39,420 nt of DNA, taken from NCBI GenBank assembly GCA_000990355.1, contig LBSX01000018.1, positions 1 through 39,420 of the forward strand, in the 5' to 3' direction. Numbering within the stretch: the first letter of the stretch is position 1; every line of letters begins with the position of its first letter. The position numbers and the translations under genes were made by a program. Under the pieces are notes generated by a model. That model saw nothing but the letters and a program-made list of their open reading frames with translations. It made no database searches and was not told the origin of the DNA. Positions 7,501 to 19,236 of the stretch are shown one piece after another. This stretch comes from Candidatus Magasanikbacteria bacterium GW2011_GWC2_37_14. Its GTDB lineage: Bacteria; Patescibacteriota; Patescibacteriia; Magasanikbacterales; UBA922.

Positions 7501-8130
7501 ACGGTATCGGCAAAAATTGGTAATCAACAAGTTTGGTTAAAAACTGGTGAATACCCAGATGGTAAATTAGCAGAAATTTTTATTGATATGTATAAAGAGG
7601 GTGCTGGTTTTCGCAGTATGATCAATATGTTTGCGATTTCCGTTTCCATGGGTTTGCAACGCGGAGTGCCACTAGAAAAATATGTAGAAAATTTTGTCTT
7701 TACGCGTTTTGAACCATCGGGTATGACTGATCATCCCAATGTAAAAATTTGTACTTCAGTAATTGACTTTGTGTTTAGAATTTTGGGAATGGAATATTTG
7801 GGACGCACTGATTTTGTACAAGTTAAGCCATTAGGAATTCAGAAAAATAAATTTGAAAATATTGCGCGCTTGGCCGAAGCGGGTGTTGGTCAGGAATCAC
7901 TAGGATTAAAAGAAGTGGTAAAACCGATTGTGGATCCGGTGACAGACAAAGAAGTTGTGGAACAAGTAGCTTTGCCGACTTTGGAAAAGAAAGTGCAGAA
8001 TGCTTCGGATGCAGCGTTGAGTAATATGATGGGTGATGCTCCGGCTTGTCCTACCTGCGGTCACATTACTGTTCGCAATGGTGCGTGTTATAAGTGCTTG
8101 AATTGTGGAGAGTCGCTTGGTTGCAGTTAA
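4600..8130 (+). CDS. nrdJ: Adenosylcobalamin-dependent (class II) ribonucleoside-diphosphate reductase
   Basis: 1176 aa; NSPQWFNTGLHWAYG, GSGTGTNFSNLRG, NPCSEYMFLDNTACNLASLNL, LAPTGTIGLLMDC; C-terminal Cys-rich CPTCG...CLNCG. Confidence 0.95.
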   Translation: MGPTDSRVIQGLHLGQKDDTKFVYNENGLRFKRKFSVDGQSPYDLIEYDRRTSVIREPDGKVVFEMKDIEIPKNWSQVATDIMAQKYFRKTGVPQYNADGTAKKHTDGSSVLGPETSVKQVVHRLAGTWRYWGERYGYFASAAEGQVFYDELVIMLLKQMAAPNSPQWFNTGLHWAYGINSGAQGHYYVDPDTGVLTKATDAYSHPQPHACFIQSVHDDLVNEGGIMDLWLREARLFKYGSGTGTNFSNLRGNGEPLSGGGRSSGLMSWLRIGDRAAGAIKSGGTTRRAAKMVVLNMDHPDIEEFINWKVKEERKVAALIAAGYSADYEGEAYQTVSGQNSNNSLRVPHKFMEAVENDGSWNLTWRIDGSACKTLKARELWDKAAFAAWACADPGLQYDGTINDWHTCPESGRINASNPCSEYMFLDNTACNLASLNLAKFFNSESQVFDVDGYLHGVRLWTVVLEISVLMAQFPSKEIAQNSYDFRTLGLGYANLGSVLMMLGLAYESEEAYAFAGSVTAIMTAESYKTSAEMAKFLGAFSKFEYNRADMLRVIRNHRRAAFAAEKNEYEKLTVLPVSINPQYAPAYLLTVVREVWNEALSWGEKYGYRNAQTTLLAPTGTIGLLMDCATTGVEPDFALVKFKKLSGGGYFRIVNEAVPSALRNLQYSEKEIEAIINYLRGTADITSAPHINATSLKSKGFTDEDLASVNKALKGAFEIKFVFNVWTLGEECLKHVGFKPTEYNDPNFNMLRALGFSEEQINEANNVVCGTMTVEGAPYLKSEHYSVFDCANRCGKIGQRFIPYLGHIKMMAAVQPFLSGAISKTINMPNEATLEDVKLAYQESWKSGLKAVALYRDGSKLSQPLSTTSKNKGDKEEEKAEVVVETQNIASVQKIEETVNISQTVNNFEFNDASDMGKAMEQAAQIFEHYNGTKPMESYNKDGGVTEKRIYMYGEKRRLPAKRSGFTVSAKIGNQQVWLKTGEYPDGKLAEIFIDMYKEGAGFRSMINMFAISVSMGLQRGVPLEKYVENFVFTRFEPSGMTDHPNVKICTSVIDFVFRILGMEYLGRTDFVQVKPLGIQKNKFENIARLAEAGVGQESLGLKEVVKPIVDPVTDKEVVEQVALPTLEKKVQNASDAALSNMMGDAPACPTCGHITVRNGACYKCLNCGESLGCS

Positions 8131-8177
8131 ATTCCGAAGGAGCACACGACTGAGGAATCTCTTTTAGAAAATTATAA

Positions 8178-8207
8178 AACCGGTTTCAAAAGGGGCCGGT
8201 TTTTGGA
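8178..8207 (+). terminator. Rho-independent terminator after nrdJ
   Basis: AAACCGG...CCGGTTTTT hairpin. Confidence 0.6.
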
Positions 8208-8217
8208 TATTTATTTT

Positions 8218-8398
8218 CCACTTTTTCAAAAAAGTGGAGTAAAAACTTCGCGCTAAACAAACACTACGGAAAATTTAGGTCTCGTCATTCGTTTTTGCTC
8301 GTGCGAGCCGAGAATAAAGAGCTCCGAAGGATCACTCATACTCGCCTCTAAATTTTTTCCTGGTGTTTGTGCGCGCGTGAACGAGTGAGTGAACGTGG
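8218..8398. repeat. long imperfect palindromic element, copy A
   Basis: CCACTTTTTCAAAAAAGTGGAGTAAAAACTTCGCGCTAAACAAACACT...GTGTTTGTGCGCGCGTGAACGAGTGAGTGAACGT; partner copy at 33200-33418. Confidence 0.85.
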
Positions 8399-8522
8399 TA
8401 AACCCTCCCCTCGTAGGGGAGGTGTCCCGATTTGCATCGGGACGGTGGGGTTCGTAGTTCTAACATGAACCCCCACCCTCCGACTGCGACGTCGGAGGAC
8501 TCCCCCTACGAGAGGGAGGATT
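8399..8522. repeat. cloverleaf-like repeat (CCCTCCCC...GGGAGGAT), copy 1
   Basis: Near-identical 124-bp copy at 39191-39313; nested hairpins GTCCCGAT/ATCGGGAC, GGTGGGGTTC/GAACCCCCACC, CCTCCGAC/GTCGGAGG. Confidence 0.85.
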
Positions 8523-8617
8523 ACAAAAAACAGTCCACTAATGAACTGTTTTTTGTTGGCCCCGACACGATCGTGGCACAACGTTCGCGTCGGGGAGTGG
8601 ACCGGGTGGTCCGCCTC

Positions 8618-8932
8618 CTACAGGTCGTCGATCACGAAATCGTGGGCCTTGTACTCGGGGTAGATTGCCTCGAGCTTGTGGAGGAACATCTGGGCGATCA
8701 GCTCCAGCGACGGCTGGTTGGCCTTCTCCTTGGCCGATTGCACGGCCTGGTACAGGCAGCAGATGCCCGCCTCGTCGTCCTGGATGGGCTTGTCGGGGAA
8801 GTTCTCGAAGCACATCGCCAGACACTCGATGGTGGTCAGCGCTTCGGTGAGGCTTTTGGCCTCGTTGGCTTTCTTGGCCAGCTTGTTCACGATCGCCATC
8901 ATGAAGGTCACGAGCTCTTTATCAATCTGCAT
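8618..8932 (-). CDS. hypothetical protein, GC-rich island gene 1
   Basis: ORF track 8618..8944; ATG at 8932 has a GGAG SD six nt upstream; TTGACA-N17-TAAAAA promoter; terminator ACAGTCCACTAATGAACTGTTTTTT. Confidence 0.65.
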   Translation of the reverse strand: MQIDKELVTFMMAIVNKLAKKANEAKSLTEALTTIECLAMCFENFPDKPIQDDEAGICCLYQAVQSAKEKANQPSLELIAQMFLHKLEAIYPEYKAHDFVIDDL

Positions 8933-9124
8933 CCATTTCTCCAAGAGGGGTTTGTCGACAATTGTTTTTTATCATAAAAACGTATTTTTGTCAATATTTT
9001 TATAGTTTTCTTTATCTCAAAATATTTAATTTAAGCTTGACACTTAGTCTATATTATGAAATAATTTTTTTGTCCTTTGGGCCATCCCTCTTTGGGGGGT
9101 GTAACGTAGTTATGTGAGGTGGTC

Positions 9125-9349
9125 ATGAGGTGGCAAGTCTTCGAAGTCAGGCGTAGAATCATGTCCAACGGTGCCGAATCCGATGAACTTGCTTTGGGCG
9201 TTCAGCTTGACCGCAAGCTTGGCGAGTGGACCCGTAACCACCCGAAGGCCAAGATCGTCGGTAATCCTGCCCAGTCGGCGTTCGTTTCTGGCAACGAGGA
9301 GGTCCTTATTCACATTATCTACTACAAGGAGAGATGGATGCGCTGGTAG
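9125..9349 (+). CDS. hypothetical short protein, GC-rich island gene 2
   Basis: 76-aa ORF (VFEVRRRIMSNGAESDELALGVQLDRKLGEWTRNHPKAKIV...VLIHIIYYKERW); upstream TTGACA at ~9038 and downstream hairpin plus T-run. Confidence 0.55.
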   Translation: MRWQVFEVRRRIMSNGAESDELALGVQLDRKLGEWTRNHPKAKIVGNPAQSAFVSGNEEVLIHIIYYKERWMRW

Positions 9350-9527
9350 CGCGTCCGCGGTCCGTCCCGTGTTTGCCTGCCATTCGGCCCGGTACACACG
9401 GGCGGGCAAACACAATTTTCACTCCTAAGAGTGTTTTTTTATAACAAAAATATTAATTTGAATTTATAAGTTTTTTATGGTTTAATAATCTCGGTGTAAT
9501 CAATTTTAATTAGTCTAAATCAATGTT

Positions 9528-11428: not shown

Positions 11429-12391
11429 TTAAATGGATTTAGTCGATTCTTTACAATCATCTTCAACTACTAGTTCTTTCTTCTTTATCCAGGTGAATCC
11501 TTTATCTGGAACAATAATAGCCACATCCACTGGTCCGCCAACTCCGGGTATCGCACCGGGATCAGCGACTATACCGTCAGAAAATCTTTGTATTGCTGAA
11601 GTAGTTTTTATAATTAAGGCAGAAAAATCTATCGCATCTTGCAATGTCATTGTACCCCACTGTATTGCATATTCTAAATTACGAAGTTGTTTATTTATTT
11701 CTTCCTGGCCATATTTTTGTGCTGATTCTTGAACAAATTTAATATTACCAATTCTACCATCAAAACCTAATACAATTCTCGAAGCAACATCATTTTGACC
11801 CTCCCAAGATGCCCCATATTCTTTTCCGGGTTCTTTACTGTTTCTCTTTATTTCAATCTCGCCAGGTATTCTACAAGTATATACCTCATGAGATTCATAA
11901 TTTTTATTGAAACCCGCTAAAAGAAAATTTAGTGGCTCTAGCATAGCATTAATCACACCTGTTTTACCATTTTTGTCTTGGACTTGGACTATAACAATAT
12001 TATTTTTTACTTCTGTTGTAATAATCTTACCACCATTAAGAGTAACGTCTCTCTCAAATTGGCTAGTAATAGCTTTTATTTGTTCCTCCACTTTATATAT
12101 ATTGCCAAAATATTTATGAATTTTTTCCGCCACTTCTTTTACAGTCATTTTTTCAGTATCTTCACTTTTTTTGAACTGTTCAATGTATTTGCTGATATTT
12201 TTCATCATGCCATTTTCAGGCAAAAATGCTAAACCCGTAGCCGCAATTGCAATCCTTTCATTGATTTTAAATAATTTAGAGGCATTGTCACTACCTATTC
12301 TAGCCGCCCCTCTTTGATTGCGATAGCTTTGACGACTATCAGCTGCTAATACGATACCTTCTGGTGTTGTTATATTAATAACAAGAGACAT
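11429..12391 (-). CDS. proteasome-like Ntn hydrolase (beta-subunit/Anbu/HslV superfamily), predicted Ser nucleophile
   Basis: After Met removal Ser1, Asp17 in GIVLAADSR, DNASKLFKI aligning with the Lys33 motif KDAKKIFKI; C-terminal GGPVDVAIIVPDKGFTWI typical of proteasome beta folds. Confidence 0.78.
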   Translation of the reverse strand: MSLVINITTPEGIVLAADSRQSYRNQRGAARIGSDNASKLFKINERIAIAATGLAFLPENGMMKNISKYIEQFKKSEDTEKMTVKEVAEKIHKYFGNIYKVEEQIKAITSQFERDVTLNGGKIITTEVKNNIVIVQVQDKNGKTGVINAMLEPLNFLLAGFNKNYESHEVYTCRIPGEIEIKRNSKEPGKEYGASWEGQNDVASRIVLGFDGRIGNIKFVQESAQKYGQEEINKQLRNLEYAIQWGTMTLQDAIDFSALIIKTTSAIQRFSDGIVADPGAIPGVGGPVDVAIIVPDKGFTWIKKKELVVEDDCKESTKSI

Positions 12392-12617
12392 ATGATGTAG
12401 AGTTAAAATTATTATTTAATAAATCATCACTTGAGAAAGCTGGACAAGGCATAATTAGATCAAACATGACAATTGGCCTGTTGTCCTGTCTGTCGCTTAT
12501 TATTTTTACTGGTTCTTCTTTCAAAATGAATGATTCTAAAATTTGTTTATGCAAAGGAGTTGCAATTTCTGGTAATTTTGAATTCCTAAGTATTTTTTCG
12601 AGCTCATTTATGTCCAT
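12375..12617 (-). CDS. 80-aa hypothetical protein, overlapping the Ntn hydrolase start
   Basis: ATG ORF overlapping the next gene by 17 nt; preceded by ECF-type promoter motif. Confidence 0.6.
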   Translation of the reverse strand: MDINELEKILRNSKLPEIATPLHKQILESFILKEEPVKIISDRQDNRPIVMFDLIMPCPAFSSDDLLNNNFNSTSYVSCY

Positions 12618-12629
12618 ATATATGTATAT

Positions 12630-13268
12630 TTAACTTTGCTCTAATAATATAACGTTTTTAGTGGCAAAAGGTTGCACTTCCTTCTCATCTTTATTAATAT
12701 CTTTGGTCAGTTTAAAGTTTTTTTTTAGTTTTTTCAACCCTCTACTTATTAAAGATTTAACCGTTCCTTCCTTTTTGTCTAATATTAAACAAATTTCTTC
12801 TATTGTTTTATTTTCAAAATACTTTAACGATATTACATCCTGGTATTTAATTGATAATTTCTGTAATTCTTTTCTTATGAGACCGCCTTTTATATCATTG
12901 TCTATTTTTTCTTGTGTTAGTCTGACTTCCGTCAAATGGTCACCAAAATTTTCTGGTTCAAAGTTGGCATCTTCCATTAGCTGGTCGAGTGAAACACATT
13001 TTTTCTTTCTGTAAAAATCATTAAGTTCATTAACTGCTATTTTAAACAACCACGGTGATATGCCAAATTCGGTACACTTAAATTTCTTTATAGATATCAT
13101 GGCTTTAAGAAAAACTGTTGATGTAATATCTTCTGCAACCTGGACACAATTTGTACGTTTTATTATGTATGACAAAATTTTCTGGTAGTATACAGTGTAT
13201 ATTGGTGCAAATTCTTTCTTATCTTGCTGTGCTTTTGCAATTTGTTCTTTTTCTATTTCAATGTCCAT
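12630..13268 (-). CDS. RNA polymerase ECF-type sigma factor
   Basis: Sigma2-like region (YKILSYIIKRTNCVQVAEDITSTVFLKAM...PWLFKIAVNELNDFYRKKK) and sigma4 HTH (IKYQDVISLKYFENKTIEEICLILDKKEGTVKSLISRGLKKLKK). Confidence 0.9.
   Translation of the reverse strand: MDIEIEKEQIAKAQQDKKEFAPIYTVYYQKILSYIIKRTNCVQVAEDITSTVFLKAMISIKKFKCTEFGISPWLFKIAVNELNDFYRKKKCVSLDQLMEDANFEPENFGDHLTEVRLTQEKIDNDIKGGLIRKELQKLSIKYQDVISLKYFENKTIEEICLILDKKEGTVKSLISRGLKKLKKNFKLTKDINKDEKEVQPFATKNVILLEQS
12651..12675 (-). promoter_or_regulatory. ECF-type promoter motif B (GCAAC-N16-CGTT)
   Basis: Minus strand TGCAACCTTTT-N8-AAACGTTATA, lying inside the 3' end of the sigma CDS, 33 nt before the 80-aa ORF. Confidence 0.7.
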
Positions 13269-13422: not shown

Positions 13423-14760
13423 TTACCCCTCCAACAACAACTCTTTCTCCTTAAGCGACAGCTTACTTCGTAAATTACTCAACAAATCTCTCTTCTCATA
13501 AACCGTTCCATCCTTAAGGATATACTTGGCATAGTTTTTCATATCAATACTTTTTTGTTTTACAGTATCTTCATTTGCCATGCCCAATACTGCTGATCTA
13601 AACTTGCTATACTTCTCAAGTTCTTCCGTCAACTTTTCTTTCATACCAAGTTTATCTAAACTCACACCGTCCACTATCTTTAATAACTCTTCAGTTAAAT
13701 CAGTTTCATTAATTGGTCGACAAGGACAATTTTTATCTCTGCTCTTAGTACAAATATAGTAGACGTGGCGATTATAACTGCCATCTTTTAATTTCTTGAA
13801 CTTTTCATCGGCGGTAATACCCGATCCGCAATGTCCACATTTGATTAACCTCGTAAAAGCAAATTCTTTTATTACAGATTTGTCTATCTCTTGGGACTTA
13901 ATTTGTGCTTGTACTCTATCAAACAATTCTTTGTCTATTATCGGCTCGTGTACCCCAGTATACCAATTACCACTACCTCTCGGGTATTCAAAAACTCCGT
14001 AGTAAAAGGAGTTTTTGAGAAGAAGGTATAAATTACCGAGGGATAAGTGTTTGTCATTTTTAGTTTTGAAGTTTATTTCATTCTTTAGCCAAGCATATAC
14101 TCTTCGTCCACTCCAACCATCTAAGGCTACTTTTTCAAATATTTGCTTCATTACTGTCGCTCGGTCTGGATCTACAATTACACTACAAGGTTTGTCCGTA
14201 CGTTTTTCATTTAAATACCCAGTTGGAGCAACCACTGGCCACAAACCCATTTCTACTCTGGCTCTTAATCCTCTCTTTATGTTTATACTCTTGGTATCAT
14301 TTTCTAATTTGGCCTGGCTCCCTAAAATCATGAATAAAAACTTTTCATTGGGGTTATTAGTAAACGTCTGACTATAGGTTCGTATTTCAACCAGGAATCC
14401 TTGATCCATTAAATCCACTACTTTACCAAGGTCACCAGCATTTCTACTAATTCGGTCTGGATGCCAGCAGATAATGCCAGTATATTTACCAGCTTTAATT
14501 TCTTCTAGAAGCTCATTAAACACCGGCCGTTCACCTACGTCTTTGGCCGAATGGCTTTCTTTTTTAGTACCCCTAATTATTAGTCCCTCTCGCTCCGCTA
14601 AAGTCGTCATTTCCTTGATCTGGGAATCAATAGAAAGAGCCTGTTGTTCGTCCGATTCTGTCGATTTACGCGCGTAAAGACAGTATTTTACCTTTACCTT
14701 TGGAATAACCCCATGTTGGTTGCCTTTTATTTGCATATAGTTGTTATTACTTACAACCAT
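13423..14760 (-). CDS. large serine recombinase / site-specific integrase
   Basis: YCLYARKSTESDEQQALSIDSQI, GIICWHPDRISRNAGD, recombinase domain and zinc ribbon CGHCGSGI...CxxKSRDKNCPC. Confidence 0.95.
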   Translation of the reverse strand: MVVSNNNYMQIKGNQHGVIPKVKVKYCLYARKSTESDEQQALSIDSQIKEMTTLAEREGLIIRGTKKESHSAKDVGERPVFNELLEEIKAGKYTGIICWHPDRISRNAGDLGKVVDLMDQGFLVEIRTYSQTFTNNPNEKFLFMILGSQAKLENDTKSINIKRGLRARVEMGLWPVVAPTGYLNEKRTDKPCSVIVDPDRATVMKQIFEKVALDGWSGRRVYAWLKNEINFKTKNDKHLSLGNLYLLLKNSFYYGVFEYPRGSGNWYTGVHEPIIDKELFDRVQAQIKSQEIDKSVIKEFAFTRLIKCGHCGSGITADEKFKKLKDGSYNRHVYYICTKSRDKNCPCRPINETDLTEELLKIVDGVSLDKLGMKEKLTEELEKYSKFRSAVLGMANEDTVKQKSIDMKNYAKYILKDGTVYEKRDLLSNLRSKLSLKEKELLLEG

Positions 14761-14818
14761 ATTAATGACGCAACCCCCCTAGGTAGTCCAGACCGAGAGT
14801 AGGTAAATTGTAGATAAC
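14759..14818. repeat. 60-bp direct repeat, copy 1 (candidate att-like site)
   Basis: 56/60 identical to 15418-15477; abuts recombinase start codon. Confidence 0.85.
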
Positions 14819-14855
14819 AAACACATGCCATAATATTTTTTGAGTGTGCAATACA

Positions 14856-14884
14856 TTGACAACCATACTTTTGTCTGTTAGGAT
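14856..14884 (+). promoter_or_regulatory. promoter (TTGACA-N17-TAGGAT) of GC-rich island gene 3
   Basis: -35 14856-14861, spacer 17. Confidence 0.5.
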
Positions 14885-14927
14885 AAAGTTCGTGCAAAGG
14901 ATGCACTAATAAAAAAGGAGACCTGTC

Positions 14928-15245
14928 ATGGCGGAGACGTTTGAGACCAAGTACCTGGATCTGGTGCGGAAGCTGCGCACGAGAGGAATCGAAGCCACTG
15001 CCCTGCTCATGGGGTGGAATCCTGGTCCGGATGGTATTCACTACACGATTCAGGTCGGTAGCTGGCAACACGGCCGGAAGCTGACCGTCGTGAGCGGGCT
15101 TGGCACGGACGAAGCCCAGATCGCGGTCATGAAGAAGACCTACGACCCGACCGTGCCTGCGACACCTGATCAAGTGTCCAAGGAAGTGGATCTGAAAACC
15201 CTCCTCGCCTTCGGTCAAGATCTCCTCGCCTTCACGGGCGACTAG
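14928..15245 (+). CDS. hypothetical protein, GC-rich island gene 3
   Basis: 105-aa ORF with AAGGAG SD; strong GC bias relative to flanks. Confidence 0.65.
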   Translation: MAETFETKYLDLVRKLRTRGIEATALLMGWNPGPDGIHYTIQVGSWQHGRKLTVVSGLGTDEAQIAVMKKTYDPTVPATPDQVSKEVDLKTLLAFGQDLLAFTGD

Positions 15246-15417
15246 CGCCGTCCTGTCGCACTACCACCCACCGTTCTGGTGGAGTGGTTCCCCACGCACA
15301 TTCCAACAAGGGAGGATTCCCCGACTGTATACGGTAAAAACGAAAGGAGAAAGTCGGGAACAGTCGAAAGATCATCTAGAGATAGGTGATTTTTTGATAA
15401 TTTCTAAGTTTGTCTTT

Positions 15418-15477
15418 ATATTAATGACGCAACCCCTCTAGGTAGTCCAGACCGAGAGTAGATAAACTGTAGGTAAC
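15418..15477. repeat. 60-bp direct repeat, copy 2 (candidate att-like site)
   Basis: See copy 1 at 14759-14818. Confidence 0.85.
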
Positions 15478-15560
15478 TCGACTTCGCAAGAATCTATATG
15501 TAAGCTATTATACACTGGACTTTTAGCTCTATTTGAGTTAAAATATCTTTAACAATTTAA

Positions 15561-15749
15561 GGCCGAAAGGCCAGATACCTAAACCTAAATTAATTTAGGC
15601 ATGGTTTCTCAAGACCCAACGAAGACACTGAACTCCACGTTCAGCGACTCTTCGTTGGGCTATACCGGGAAACTGGTATAGGGTCGTAAGACCTAGCTGG
15701 CGTGGGGTTTTGTGTTTCATGCCGGCTAACCAACAAAGGTCGGTTTTTT
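15561..15749 (+). ncRNA. candidate structured RNA or 5' leader
   Basis: Hairpins GGCC-gaaa-GGCC, CCCAACGAAGA/TCTTCGTTGGG (inner CTGAAC/GTTCAG), CTATACC/GGTATAG, GGTC-gtaa-GACC, AGCTGGC/GCCGGCT, then a T-run; no ORF. Confidence 0.5.
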
Positions 15750-15772
15750 ATTTATTATTAACTTAAAATATT

Positions 15773-16345
15773 ATGCCAGAAAATACAACATCAGTCACCA
15801 CTAAAAAATGTCGTCATTGCCAAGGGATAGTAGATATCAAAGCTAAAAAATGCCAACACTGCAGTTCTGATTTAAGAAATTGGTTTATTAGACACAAAAT
15901 TATTTCTATAATTTTGATAATCATACTATATGCCATTGGTTCTCAAAGTTTGAGTGACACCAACAAAGCAAGACAGGCGGCGAAATTAAACAATGATGGC
16001 TCTACGACTAGTACTTCCGCTGAAGTGCAAAACGACAATAATTTACAAGTCGGACAAGATTCATATCTACGTTTACCAAATATTTCTGATCCTGGACAAA
16101 AAATATGCTTAGGTACAACCACCGATGACGCAGATAAAATTACTAAGGCTATGTTGGCTAATGACTTTTTAGGTCTGTTAGAAATTCCAGGTGCCTTTTG
16201 TGTAAGCAACGGTACAAAGGTAAAACTTATAGAAAAAGATTTTCCACTAAGAAGAGTTAGGATAGTTGAAGGCGTTAATAAGATTGATAGTGATAAAGTT
16301 GGTCTATCTGGATGGGTACCATTAGAATTTGTGGTAACCAACTAA
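15773..16345 (+). CDS. zinc-ribbon membrane protein with SH3-like extracytoplasmic tail
   Basis: CRHCQGIVDIKAKKCQHC zinc ribbon, one TM segment, C-terminal beta-rich domain ending DSDKVGLSGWVPLEFV. Confidence 0.6.
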   Translation: MPENTTSVTTKKCRHCQGIVDIKAKKCQHCSSDLRNWFIRHKIISIILIIILYAIGSQSLSDTNKARQAAKLNNDGSTTSTSAEVQNDNNLQVGQDSYLRLPNISDPGQKICLGTTTDDADKITKAMLANDFLGLLEIPGAFCVSNGTKVKLIEKDFPLRRVRIVEGVNKIDSDKVGLSGWVPLEFVVTN

Positions 16346-16349
16346 TTTA

Positions 16350-16829
16350 TTATTTATCCAACTCAGACTTGGAATCTAAAACGTCAGTAATAATTTTATC
16401 ATTATTATCTTTTTCTCTGCCCGGGTAGATGAATACTCTAATAGCTTCTATTGTTTTTTCAATTAGATTTTTCTTTTCATTTTCTACTTTACGTAATTTC
16501 TCTTCTAGTTTGAGTCTCATAAAACCTGGGTTAGCATTCTCATATCTTGGACTATTGTGCTCCAAAATATATTTTGATGCGTTGAGTGCCACATACTCGT
16601 TACTACCTTTGACCAAACTGACAATTTTAGATTCTGCTACATCACAGATTCCAGTAATGCCGATATCTTTGGCTTTGTTGAATTCTTCTCGAAACACTTC
16701 GTCTTCATTAAACCATCGATAAAAAGTAGCTCGAGAAATATCAAACTTGTGACACAAAGAACTGATAATCGGATTATCACTAGCCAACTTAATCATATTT
16801 TTTTTAATTTTAGCTTTGGACACTTTCAT
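16350..16829 (-). CDS. phage terminase small subunit-like HTH protein
   Basis: N-terminal HTH (NPIISSLCHKFDISRATFYRWFNEDEVFREEFNKA) and organisation typical of small terminase-like proteins. Confidence 0.55.
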   Translation of the reverse strand: MKVSKAKIKKNMIKLASDNPIISSLCHKFDISRATFYRWFNEDEVFREEFNKAKDIGITGICDVAESKIVSLVKGSNEYVALNASKYILEHNSPRYENANPGFMRLKLEEKLRKVENEKKNLIEKTIEAIRVFIYPGREKDNNDKIITDVLDSKSELDK

Positions 16830-18153
16830 ATTTAACGGCCTTTTTTCCAGTTAACTTTTCCCAACGATTACGGATAACCTCGGCGTAGACTGGAGATTTC
16901 TCCATAACATAGCAACGTCGATTCATTTTGGTCGCTGCTATCAAAGTCGAGCCACTACCACCAAACGGCTCAACTATTAAGTCTCCTCGTTTGGTTAGTA
17001 CTTTGATATATGGTATTAAAATCTGTAATGGTTTAGTACCAAAGATTATTCCTTGTCCAGAGTGTTTAGCGTCGTCAGCGTTAAACTCAATAAAATCACT
17101 CGGACAAATCTTTTTACCTTTTTCGTATCCTTCCCATTGGGGTTTACCTGAAATGGCATACAACGCCGTTTCATATTCATTCTGCAATTCTTGTTCTTCA
17201 TCTTCGAGATTGTATTCTACCTCACCAGAAGCCCCAACCATGGCGATATCATGTTTAGAAAAGAATTTATGCTTAGCAGCAAATCCTTGGGTACGATTAG
17301 GTAAATGCCAAACTAACATATTTTTAATTTTCCAATGTTTTTTCATTTCATCCCAGATGATTGGAATGTTCTTCCAATTTTCGTAAACAATAATGGAAAA
17401 ATTATTCTTGGCAATATTTTTGGTATTAGCCATCCATTTTTCTGTAAAATCATCAGGCAGTTCGTCGGTCTCAAGGTAGCGACGATTTTTCTTGGCCCCG
17501 AATCCTTCGGTTGGATTCCCATTCCTTTTGCCAGCTTTTAAATAATCCAAAATGTATGGTGGATCGGTAAAGCACATGTCAGCTTTTTCACCATTCATTA
17601 AGTTTTGTATATCTGCTTCAATGGTCGAGTCACCACAATACAAGACACTATCTCCCAAAAGCCAACGATCTCCTTTTTGGATTTCAATTTCCGTAATATT
17701 TAGTTTGTCCAACTCTTTTTCTAGATCAAATTGTTCAGGGATATCTTCGACTTCAAAAATGTCATCGATATCTTCGCTACTAAATCCAACGTCAGCTAAA
17801 AAACTTTCGTCAAATTCAGCTAAAAGATTTAGATCCCATTCGCCAGTATTTTTATTTAATCGTAAATTAAGTTCTTTCTCTTTACTTATATCTGGTAGGT
17901 TAATGTACACAACTGGCATTTCTGTGTAGCCCATTTTTTGAGCAACAAACAATCTGAAGTGTCCGCCGATAACAATGTTCTTTCTGTTATCTGCACCATT
18001 AGCGATAATAGGGTCTACCAGACCGAATGTATTTATACTCTCTGTTAGTTGCCCTACAGCAACCTCATCCCACTTGCGTGGGTTATATTCTGTGGGTTTC
18101 AAGTCCATAATCGGGACTTGGACGATATTGATGTTGTGACTTTGTGTAGTCAT
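16810..18153 (-). CDS. ParB-like nuclease domain plus site-specific DNA methyltransferase
   Basis: ParB-like N-terminus (NPRKWDEVAVGQLTESINTFGLVDPIIA...VIGGHFR) and MTase motifs TDPPY and EPFGGSGSTLIAA; ORF track extends to 18213, ATG at 18153 preferred. Confidence 0.88.
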   Translation of the reverse strand: MTTQSHNINIVQVPIMDLKPTEYNPRKWDEVAVGQLTESINTFGLVDPIIANGADNRKNIVIGGHFRLFVAQKMGYTEMPVVYINLPDISKEKELNLRLNKNTGEWDLNLLAEFDESFLADVGFSSEDIDDIFEVEDIPEQFDLEKELDKLNITEIEIQKGDRWLLGDSVLYCGDSTIEADIQNLMNGEKADMCFTDPPYILDYLKAGKRNGNPTEGFGAKKNRRYLETDELPDDFTEKWMANTKNIAKNNFSIIVYENWKNIPIIWDEMKKHWKIKNMLVWHLPNRTQGFAAKHKFFSKHDIAMVGASGEVEYNLEDEEQELQNEYETALYAISGKPQWEGYEKGKKICPSDFIEFNADDAKHSGQGIIFGTKPLQILIPYIKVLTKRGDLIVEPFGGSGSTLIAATKMNRRCYVMEKSPVYAEVIRNRWEKLTGKKAVKYESVQS

Positions 18154-18259
18154 ATGTTTGTTAGTTAATGAATTAAAAAAATACCTAACGATAGGTATTA
18201 TATACAAAGTCAAAAGCCAAATTGTGACATTATTTGTTACAAATAACTGTGTGATTTTT

Positions 18260-19114
18260 TTAGCTTGTTTTAGATAATTTATTCATTCTACTTCTAATCT
18301 TTCTCATATTAGGAATAAATTTATCCACATCTGATTTTGTAGCATCTTCTGGTAAAAACTCTGTAGCCACATCCTGATCTTTCCATTTGTAATCTCCTTC
18401 TTCATCATTAATTACCATGTTCTTCTTTTTTGATAATTTCATTAATTTTACATTTTCATTAAATTTATTCATGGGATGCATTTCCACATCTCCCAGTGGA
18501 TAGTGACAATGACTTAAAAATTTGAATTTTTTATTTTTTATAAATTTAAGATGCATCTCCACTTCTTCTTTTATCATTTTCCACTCGTCTCTTGTGGGTT
18601 TATTATAAACAGCCACACTGATATATTCCTTATCACAATCAAATGCGATTGAATGATTGGCACTTGGGGCGGTTATGTCATTAAAAAAAATATACTTTCT
18701 AACATTTTCCTTAAAGTGAATTGGTAATTTGTTATTTTTTACAGTGTCATTTAATTCTTGATCAAAGTGATTTAATCTTATGTAAGAGTTGTTAACTTGT
18801 GTTTTCTCAAGTCTATAATCACTAAATTTTTTATATAACCCTTTTTTAAGTTTTATTTCTATATTTTTTAAAGCTTTAAGATAATTTTTATTTTCCATAT
18901 CTATATCTGTCTGCAGAACCATTTTTTTATGCCAAAGATCGCATTCTTGACCACTTTGAAAACCATCTTTATTAATATTAAAAATATTCCTAATTTTTTT
19001 AATATCTGATTGGAATTTTTGACTATAAACTGTTTTTTTCATTAAATCCAAATTTACCCGATGAATTTTAGGGACTATTTCAAAAATGATAGTTTTTTTG
19101 TTCTTTTTAGTCAT
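18260..19114 (-). CDS. hypothetical protein
   Basis: 284-aa intact ORF, no recognised family. Confidence 0.65.
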   Translation of the reverse strand: MTKKNKKTIIFEIVPKIHRVNLDLMKKTVYSQKFQSDIKKIRNIFNINKDGFQSGQECDLWHKKMVLQTDIDMENKNYLKALKNIEIKLKKGLYKKFSDYRLEKTQVNNSYIRLNHFDQELNDTVKNNKLPIHFKENVRKYIFFNDITAPSANHSIAFDCDKEYISVAVYNKPTRDEWKMIKEEVEMHLKFIKNKKFKFLSHCHYPLGDVEMHPMNKFNENVKLMKLSKKKNMVINDEEGDYKWKDQDVATEFLPEDATKSDVDKFIPNMRKIRSRMNKLSKTS

Positions 19115-19236
19115 GTTGTTATTTTAACTGAAAAACAGCAATTATTCAACTGAAATATATTGACTTTTAACTTATAAATTGTTTAAATAGGATGGGGTGG
19201 TGGTGCAAATAGTGTGCGGGGATCTGGGAGGTTGCG

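Follow-up and report, generated by a model that had tools for sequence, protein, structure and literature searches.

The genome of Candidatus Magasanikbacteria bacterium GW2011_GWC2_37_14 (GCA_000990355.1; 1.10 Mb in 24 contigs) encodes a proteasome-like protein, P0001, that very probably has the fold and the active site of an N-terminal nucleophile (Ntn) hydrolase with serine as residue 1 (Ser1). Its gene is located at positions 11429–12391 on the minus strand of a 39,420-nucleotide stretch of contig LBSX01000018.1, referred to here as the window, and it encodes 320 amino acids (aa), the approximate chain length given in the first-pass annotation of this DNA. The Ser1 is real but has precedent among known proteasome homologs. 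The unusual part is the genomic context of the relatives of P0001, which lay beyond the view of that annotation: in most of them, the Ntn gene is paired with a regulator gene in or near restriction loci, and this pairing is worth following. On balance, the findings favor a model in which P0001 is a Ser1 Ntn hydrolase resembling the PMI group (PMI, proteasome homolog with multiple insertions) that acts as a dedicated regulatory peptidase of mobile restriction/defense loci.

P0001 is the sole match to the proteasome family PF00227 in the whole genome. Its score of 26.6 bits is above the curated cut-off of 22.4, indicating that the proteasome likeness is beyond chance. A model of the archaeal beta subunit matches over the N-terminal third of the protein, which begins MSLVINITTPEGIVLAADSR, and the C-terminal motif GVGGPVDVAII aligns with the beta-subunit segment SASGGMIDVAVI. 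Thus, the proteasome core extends across the whole of P0001. The NCBIfam model of HslV was not among the matches up to E=1. Further evidence comes from structure prediction, one of the checks proposed in the first-pass annotation. An AlphaFold2 run with a 12-sequence alignment produced a model with a pLDDT of 78.7 and a pTM of 0.76, and the best 50 PDB matches of this model in Foldseek were all proteasome entries, which points to a proteasome-subunit fold.

The N-terminus of P0001 was predicted in the first-pass annotation to expose a serine after removal of the initiator Met, with no propeptide, and the sequence supports both predictions. The start codon ATG (12391–12389) is followed by the Ser1 codon TCT (12388–12386), and the Met-Ser start that this pair (12386–12391, minus strand) encodes is kept in all core homologs. 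An in-frame TAA (12416–12418, minus strand) precedes the ATG by 8 codons, and no ATG, GTG, or TTG lies between the two, ruling out an upstream start and with it a propeptide. The core set consists of 11 members, among them a homolog that is 64% identical to P0001 (L004, JAKPCP010000007.1) and others from whole-genome searches. The ten members with tabulated starts, one of which is the window’s own, all begin with Met-Ser; in these, the upstream stop is 2–19 codons away and no alternative start exists. One member (G315), whose gene is split over two contigs and which stands outside the table, also begins with Met-Ser-Leu. The Ser1 codon varies among homologs between TCT, TCA, AGT, and AGC. In other words, Ser1 is encoded by both the TCN and the AGY classes, indicating that serine is maintained at the amino-acid level. 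Neither of the two findings that, according to the first-pass annotation, would have spoken against the Ser1 reading was made: an upstream start is not conserved among the homologs, and each of them carries Ser or Thr as residue 1.

The remaining residues of the active site are conserved as well. In an alignment of eight full-length members, S2, D18, R20, K39, and G53 (numbered from Met) are invariant. D18 (codon 12338–12340, minus strand) falls at the position of proteasome Asp17, as had been claimed. K39 (12275–12277, minus strand) is the equivalent of Lys33, and G53 (12233–12235, minus strand) is assigned by alignment as the equivalent of the oxyanion Gly47. The lysine belongs to the motif SDNASKLFKI, just outside the interval 12300–12391 covered by the first-pass annotation, and is residue 38 counted from Ser1, which corresponds to position 33 of the proteasome once a 5-residue insert is taken into account. 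The annotation had read DNASKLFKI in the same way. Other positions appear to differ from proteasomes. Residue 3 is V, A, G, C, or T in the core family, while Thr or Ile is reported in proteasomes, where residues 3, 33, and 46 contact the methyl group of Thr1 (PMC4792962). The variability of residue 3 would be consistent with a site that is not built for anchoring a Thr methyl group. In a profile alignment, Ser169 of the proteasome aligns with Val, and the amine-positioning residues Ser129, Asp166, and Ser169 are, by alignment, apparently not conserved, a point against the proposed active site.

How unusual is a Ser1 in this superfamily? The first-pass annotation held that a Ser1 variant with a longer chain and a middle extension would be an unusual branch, and took HslV to use Thr1. 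The literature does not support Ser1 as a novelty, and Thr1 is not universal in HslV: natural Ser1 has been reported in the B. subtilis HslV (CodW), in BPH outside Betaproteobacteria, and in one Anbu (PMC5777263), and the proteasome-like family is listed with ‘Thr1/Ser1’, propeptides being absent outside proteasome beta subunits and HslV (PMC8665760). BPH outside Betaproteobacteria share with P0001 both the natural Ser1 and the lack of a propeptide, and CodW shares the natural Ser1 but has an HslV-type partner; BPH and CodW are compact double-ring subunits without inserts comparable to those of P0001. Anbu likewise has no propeptide, and its Met is removed to expose residue 1. However, Anbu resides in a transglutaminase/ATP-grasp/Alpha-E operon, whereas the neighbors of P0001 are TerC, a cobalamin adenosyltransferase, a sigma factor, and a recombinase, and the long C-terminal helix of Anbu does not appear in the P0001 model. 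The 20S beta subunits use Thr1 instead of the Ser1 found in all core members here, mostly carry a propeptide, which P0001 lacks, and have partner alpha/beta genes, in contrast to the single PF00227 match in this genome. Proteasomes are described as strictly Thr1-using for a reason called enigmatic; the yeast beta5-T1S mutant is active but slower, and its Ser1 rotates away without the Thr1 methyl contacts (PMC4792962). Published assays found peptidase activity for neither of the close homologs Anbu and BPH (PMC5777263), which weighs against an active P0001.

The P0001 model contains helices H1 (residues 66–76), H2 (84–98), H3 (200–208), and H4 (250–271). The first-pass annotation had proposed a middle extension of ~100 aa. 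The extra residues are indeed present, but not as a single block: the alignment and the model place them in two inserts, one after H1/H2 (residues about 101–150; 11942–12091, minus strand) that forms a helix and three strands, and one between H3 and H4 (residues about 210–249; 11645–11764, minus strand) that contains inserted helices at 212–237. Inserts after H1/H2 and between H3/H4 were described by Fuchs, Alva, and Lupas in 2021 as the signature of the PMI-3 and PMI-4 groups, and extra residues at these sites reportedly interfere with the assembly of rings or double rings (PMC8665760). P0001 shares with these groups the proteasome-like core, the Thr1/Ser1 triad, the lack of a propeptide, and the same two insert sites. 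It is therefore probably a PMI-3/PMI-4-like member, placed by the published description of these groups, whose representatives are OGZ26396.1 (PMI-3) and HDY66466.1 (PMI-4).

Close homologs are spread over several bacterial families with the same Met-Ser start and the triad kept. Shorter Ser1 relatives of 244–257 aa occur in the same phylum (G211, G078, and G456), and a sister clade (G863, G952, and G874) is likewise Ser1. In this sister clade (loci L061, L062, L063, and L056, the last from G920), AADSMET replaces AADSRQS, changing the Arg at residue 19 to Met. Relatives on IMG/VR contigs fall into those with Ser1 (L023, L024, L026, and L027) and those with Thr1 (L022, L025, L028, L031, L033, and L034). 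In an IQ-TREE tree with no root assigned, a single supported branch (99/96) separates Ser1 from Thr1. A member from the window’s own class (G538) pairs with one from another class (G121) with 100/98 support, and 59 relatives of the window genome yielded no homolog of P0001, making horizontal transfer of the Ntn gene likely. A weak match in a close relative (G041) was an endonuclease III and was rejected as a chance match. Across 380 genomes, matches of any strength occurred in 13, indicating a sporadic presence. A tblastn search with P0001 against phage and plasmid records gave no match, nor did searches with its relatives against plasmids and in two further viral scans. Separately, phages of Stenotrophomonas, Porphyromonas, and Providencia encode hypothetical proteins of 414–431 aa that start with MTA and end with VGGP(I/V)DVA (L039:3008–4258, L040:2029–3273, and L041:1963–3258), near lysis or structural genes; these look like long Thr1 proteasome-like proteins.

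Comparison of neighboring ORFs across the homolog loci revealed a recurrent partner. Nine genomes were assessable, the window’s own being the ninth; one further locus, in G308, is truncated where its contig stops. In eight of the nine (G126, G147, G121, G116, G184, G315, G538, and G1023), a LexA-type winged-helix (wHTH) gene lies directly upstream of the Ntn gene on the same strand, and in seven of these eight the two genes overlap or lie within about 16 nt of each other. A genome-wide PF01726 scan returned only 1–3 matches per genome, one of which sat at the Ntn-upstream position in all eight, the match at this position in G126 and G121 being below the Pfam cut-off. A naive estimate puts the chance of this placement at about 1e-21, a figure to be discounted for shared ancestry because the loci are not all independent. 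No Peptidase_S24 domain was found in the wHTH partners scanned, among which the G538 partner is represented by its BLAST homolog from G121.

The wHTH-Ntn pair lies in or near restriction loci of type I, II, III, or GmrSD type. In G116, the gene order is HsdM, wHTH, Ntn, a membrane-segment protein, HsdS, an unknown gene, and HsdR, and G315 carries an HsdM/HsdS-type protein. The G121 locus contains type III-like mod and res genes with homologs in G538. A methyltransferase is accompanied by a TdeIII endonuclease in G147 and by a 485-aa protein of unknown kind in G1023. G184 has a DUF2779/Cas4-like gene with GmrSD nearby, and G126 has a divergently oriented LexA-S24-methyltransferase fusion. In two unrelated genomes, a full LexA (wHTH and S24 peptidase) is fused in this way with an N6/N4 DNA methyltransferase and lies divergent from the Ser1 Ntn gene (L042:2410–4308 and L049:8174–9733). 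In six of ten genomes, a PF01555 methyltransferase lies no more than 5 kb from the Ntn gene, compared with 0.19 expected by chance. On IMG/VR contigs, genes of the restriction-modification (RM) type are also found near two Thr1 relatives: a methyltransferase with an Mrr-like domain and MmeI. No RM genes were found beside the Ntn gene at L004 and the G863-clade loci, and L004, like the window, has no wHTH partner. For PMI homologs, Fuchs et al. found no informative genomic context (PMC8665760), in contrast to the wHTH pairing in RM loci seen among the relatives of P0001. A search of the open-access literature for proteasome-like proteins linked to RM or LexA yielded nothing on point, and within that literature the linkage appears to be new.

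In the window, the wHTH gene is absent upstream of the Ntn gene, and its slot is filled by an 80-aa ORF of unknown family, P0002 (12375–12617, minus strand), which shares 17 nt with the start of the Ntn gene. P0002 was detected by tblastn in no other Ntn locus, and its single-sequence fold was uninformative (pLDDT 46). A frame-shifted fusion of P0002 and the Ntn gene was ruled out, because P0002 is missing from the other loci and the homologs begin at the same Met-Ser. P0002 is adjoined by a gene for a 212-aa ECF-like sigma-70 factor (12630–13268, minus strand). At L004, an ECF-like sigma gene 31% identical to that of the window lies 0.6 kb downstream of the Ntn gene (L004:7268–8703), which may be a coincidence. 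Further upstream of the Ntn gene are a large serine recombinase (13423–14760, minus strand), which shares 59% identity with a recombinase close to the short Ser1 relative in G211, and a protein with ParB_N and N6/N4 DNA methyltransferase domains (16810–18213, minus strand). The latter belongs to a 2.7-kb segment that occurs twice in the genome with about 83% nucleotide identity (window about 16429–19164; contig C16 5260–7995, L069). The segment encodes a terminase-like HTH protein, the ParB-methyltransferase, and a 284-aa protein, and each copy is near a different serine recombinase. Given the serine recombinase, the methyltransferase, and the repeated segment, the Ntn gene of the window appears to be carried as cargo by an integrative element. 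TerC is sporadic among genomes, so TerC synteny was uninformative for an empty site. Two parts of the window (14500–15999 and 8000–9499) have a GC content of 0.45–0.51 compared with about 0.30–0.38 around them, and long ORFs overlap on both strands at 14751–15245.

How would P0001 act? Methionine aminopeptidase would remove the initiator Met, the free amine and hydroxyl of Ser1 would form the active site, and Lys38 and Asp17 would activate Ser1 for attack on a peptide bond. Since there is no propeptide, an autolysis step would be unnecessary. From its genomic context, it is fairly likely that the protein’s function is tied to RM/defense loci, where it would serve as a dedicated peptidase rather than in housekeeping proteolysis. 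The most likely substrate would be the operon partner, which in most relatives is the LexA-type wHTH protein without S24; in the window it might be P0002 next to the ECF-like sigma factor. Cleavage of the partner would then change the expression of neighboring genes. This cleavage is proposed tentatively, because S24 is missing from the wHTH protein and because known pairs of an HTH regulator and a peptidase offer an analogy. In two such pairs, CapH/CapP (mentioned in PMC12255303) and ImmR/ImmA, a peptidase likewise lies next to a DNA-binding regulator on mobile or defense loci, but the peptidases are metalloproteases, whereas here a Ser-Ntn enzyme accompanies a LexA-type wHTH protein and the cleavage is hypothetical. 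A more speculative version is a ‘split LexA’, in which the S24-less LexA-type protein would be cut in trans by the Ser1 peptidase, the two forming a mobile regulatory/defense cassette used with several RM types.

Other explanations were considered. One is that P0001 is a general self-compartmentalizing protease whose ring or barrel degrades damaged proteins, the wHTH protein being a mere transcription regulator and the RM association a by-product of shared islands. The proteasome fold would fit such a protease, as would the stable chromosomal place of the G863-clade gene near the enolase and alaS genes. However, the sporadic presence of the gene, the position of the inserts, reported to impede the assembly of rings or double rings (PMC8665760), and the absence of an AAA+ partner from the compared neighborhoods make it unlikely. 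The association with RM operons of several types, inside or beside which the Ntn gene is found, could alternatively reflect a defense effector that is released or expressed when phages attack or DNA is damaged and that cleaves proteins of the host or the phage, with the wHTH protein as sensor or repressor. The LexA-like DNA-binding domain of the partner and the membrane-segment partners or neighbors in several loci agree with this role, but PADLOC models gave weak partial matches only, and an effector of this kind is considered doubtful.

The chemistry itself could also differ. A ligating proteasome homolog is known in connectase (PMC8665760), and the extra inserts of P0001 could shape substrate specificity, as would suit a protein ligase or transpeptidase rather than a hydrolase. 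Yet connectase is without H1/H2 and has a two-helix insert between S3 and S4, whereas P0001 has H1/H2 and carries its inserts elsewhere, so a ligase is very improbable. A catalytically dead scaffold, comparable to a proteasome alpha subunit, would explain why the secondary relay residues look altered and why several of the sequence matches of P0001 are alpha subunits. It is hardly compatible with the invariance of the Ser1, Asp17, Lys33, and Gly47 equivalents across distant members, the retention of Ser through both codon classes, and the lack of an alpha-type N-terminal extension in P0001.

A conserved group with a natural Ser1 and no propeptide is a useful comparison for the question of why proteasomes use Thr1. 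Through the linkage to wHTH and RM genes, proteasome homologs that have so far been without a role gain a candidate one that is concrete and can be tested, and a split LexA, if true, would give a PMI-type proteasome homolog its first functional setting. The linkage would also add a peptidase component to the restriction/defense loci of bacteria with tiny genomes.
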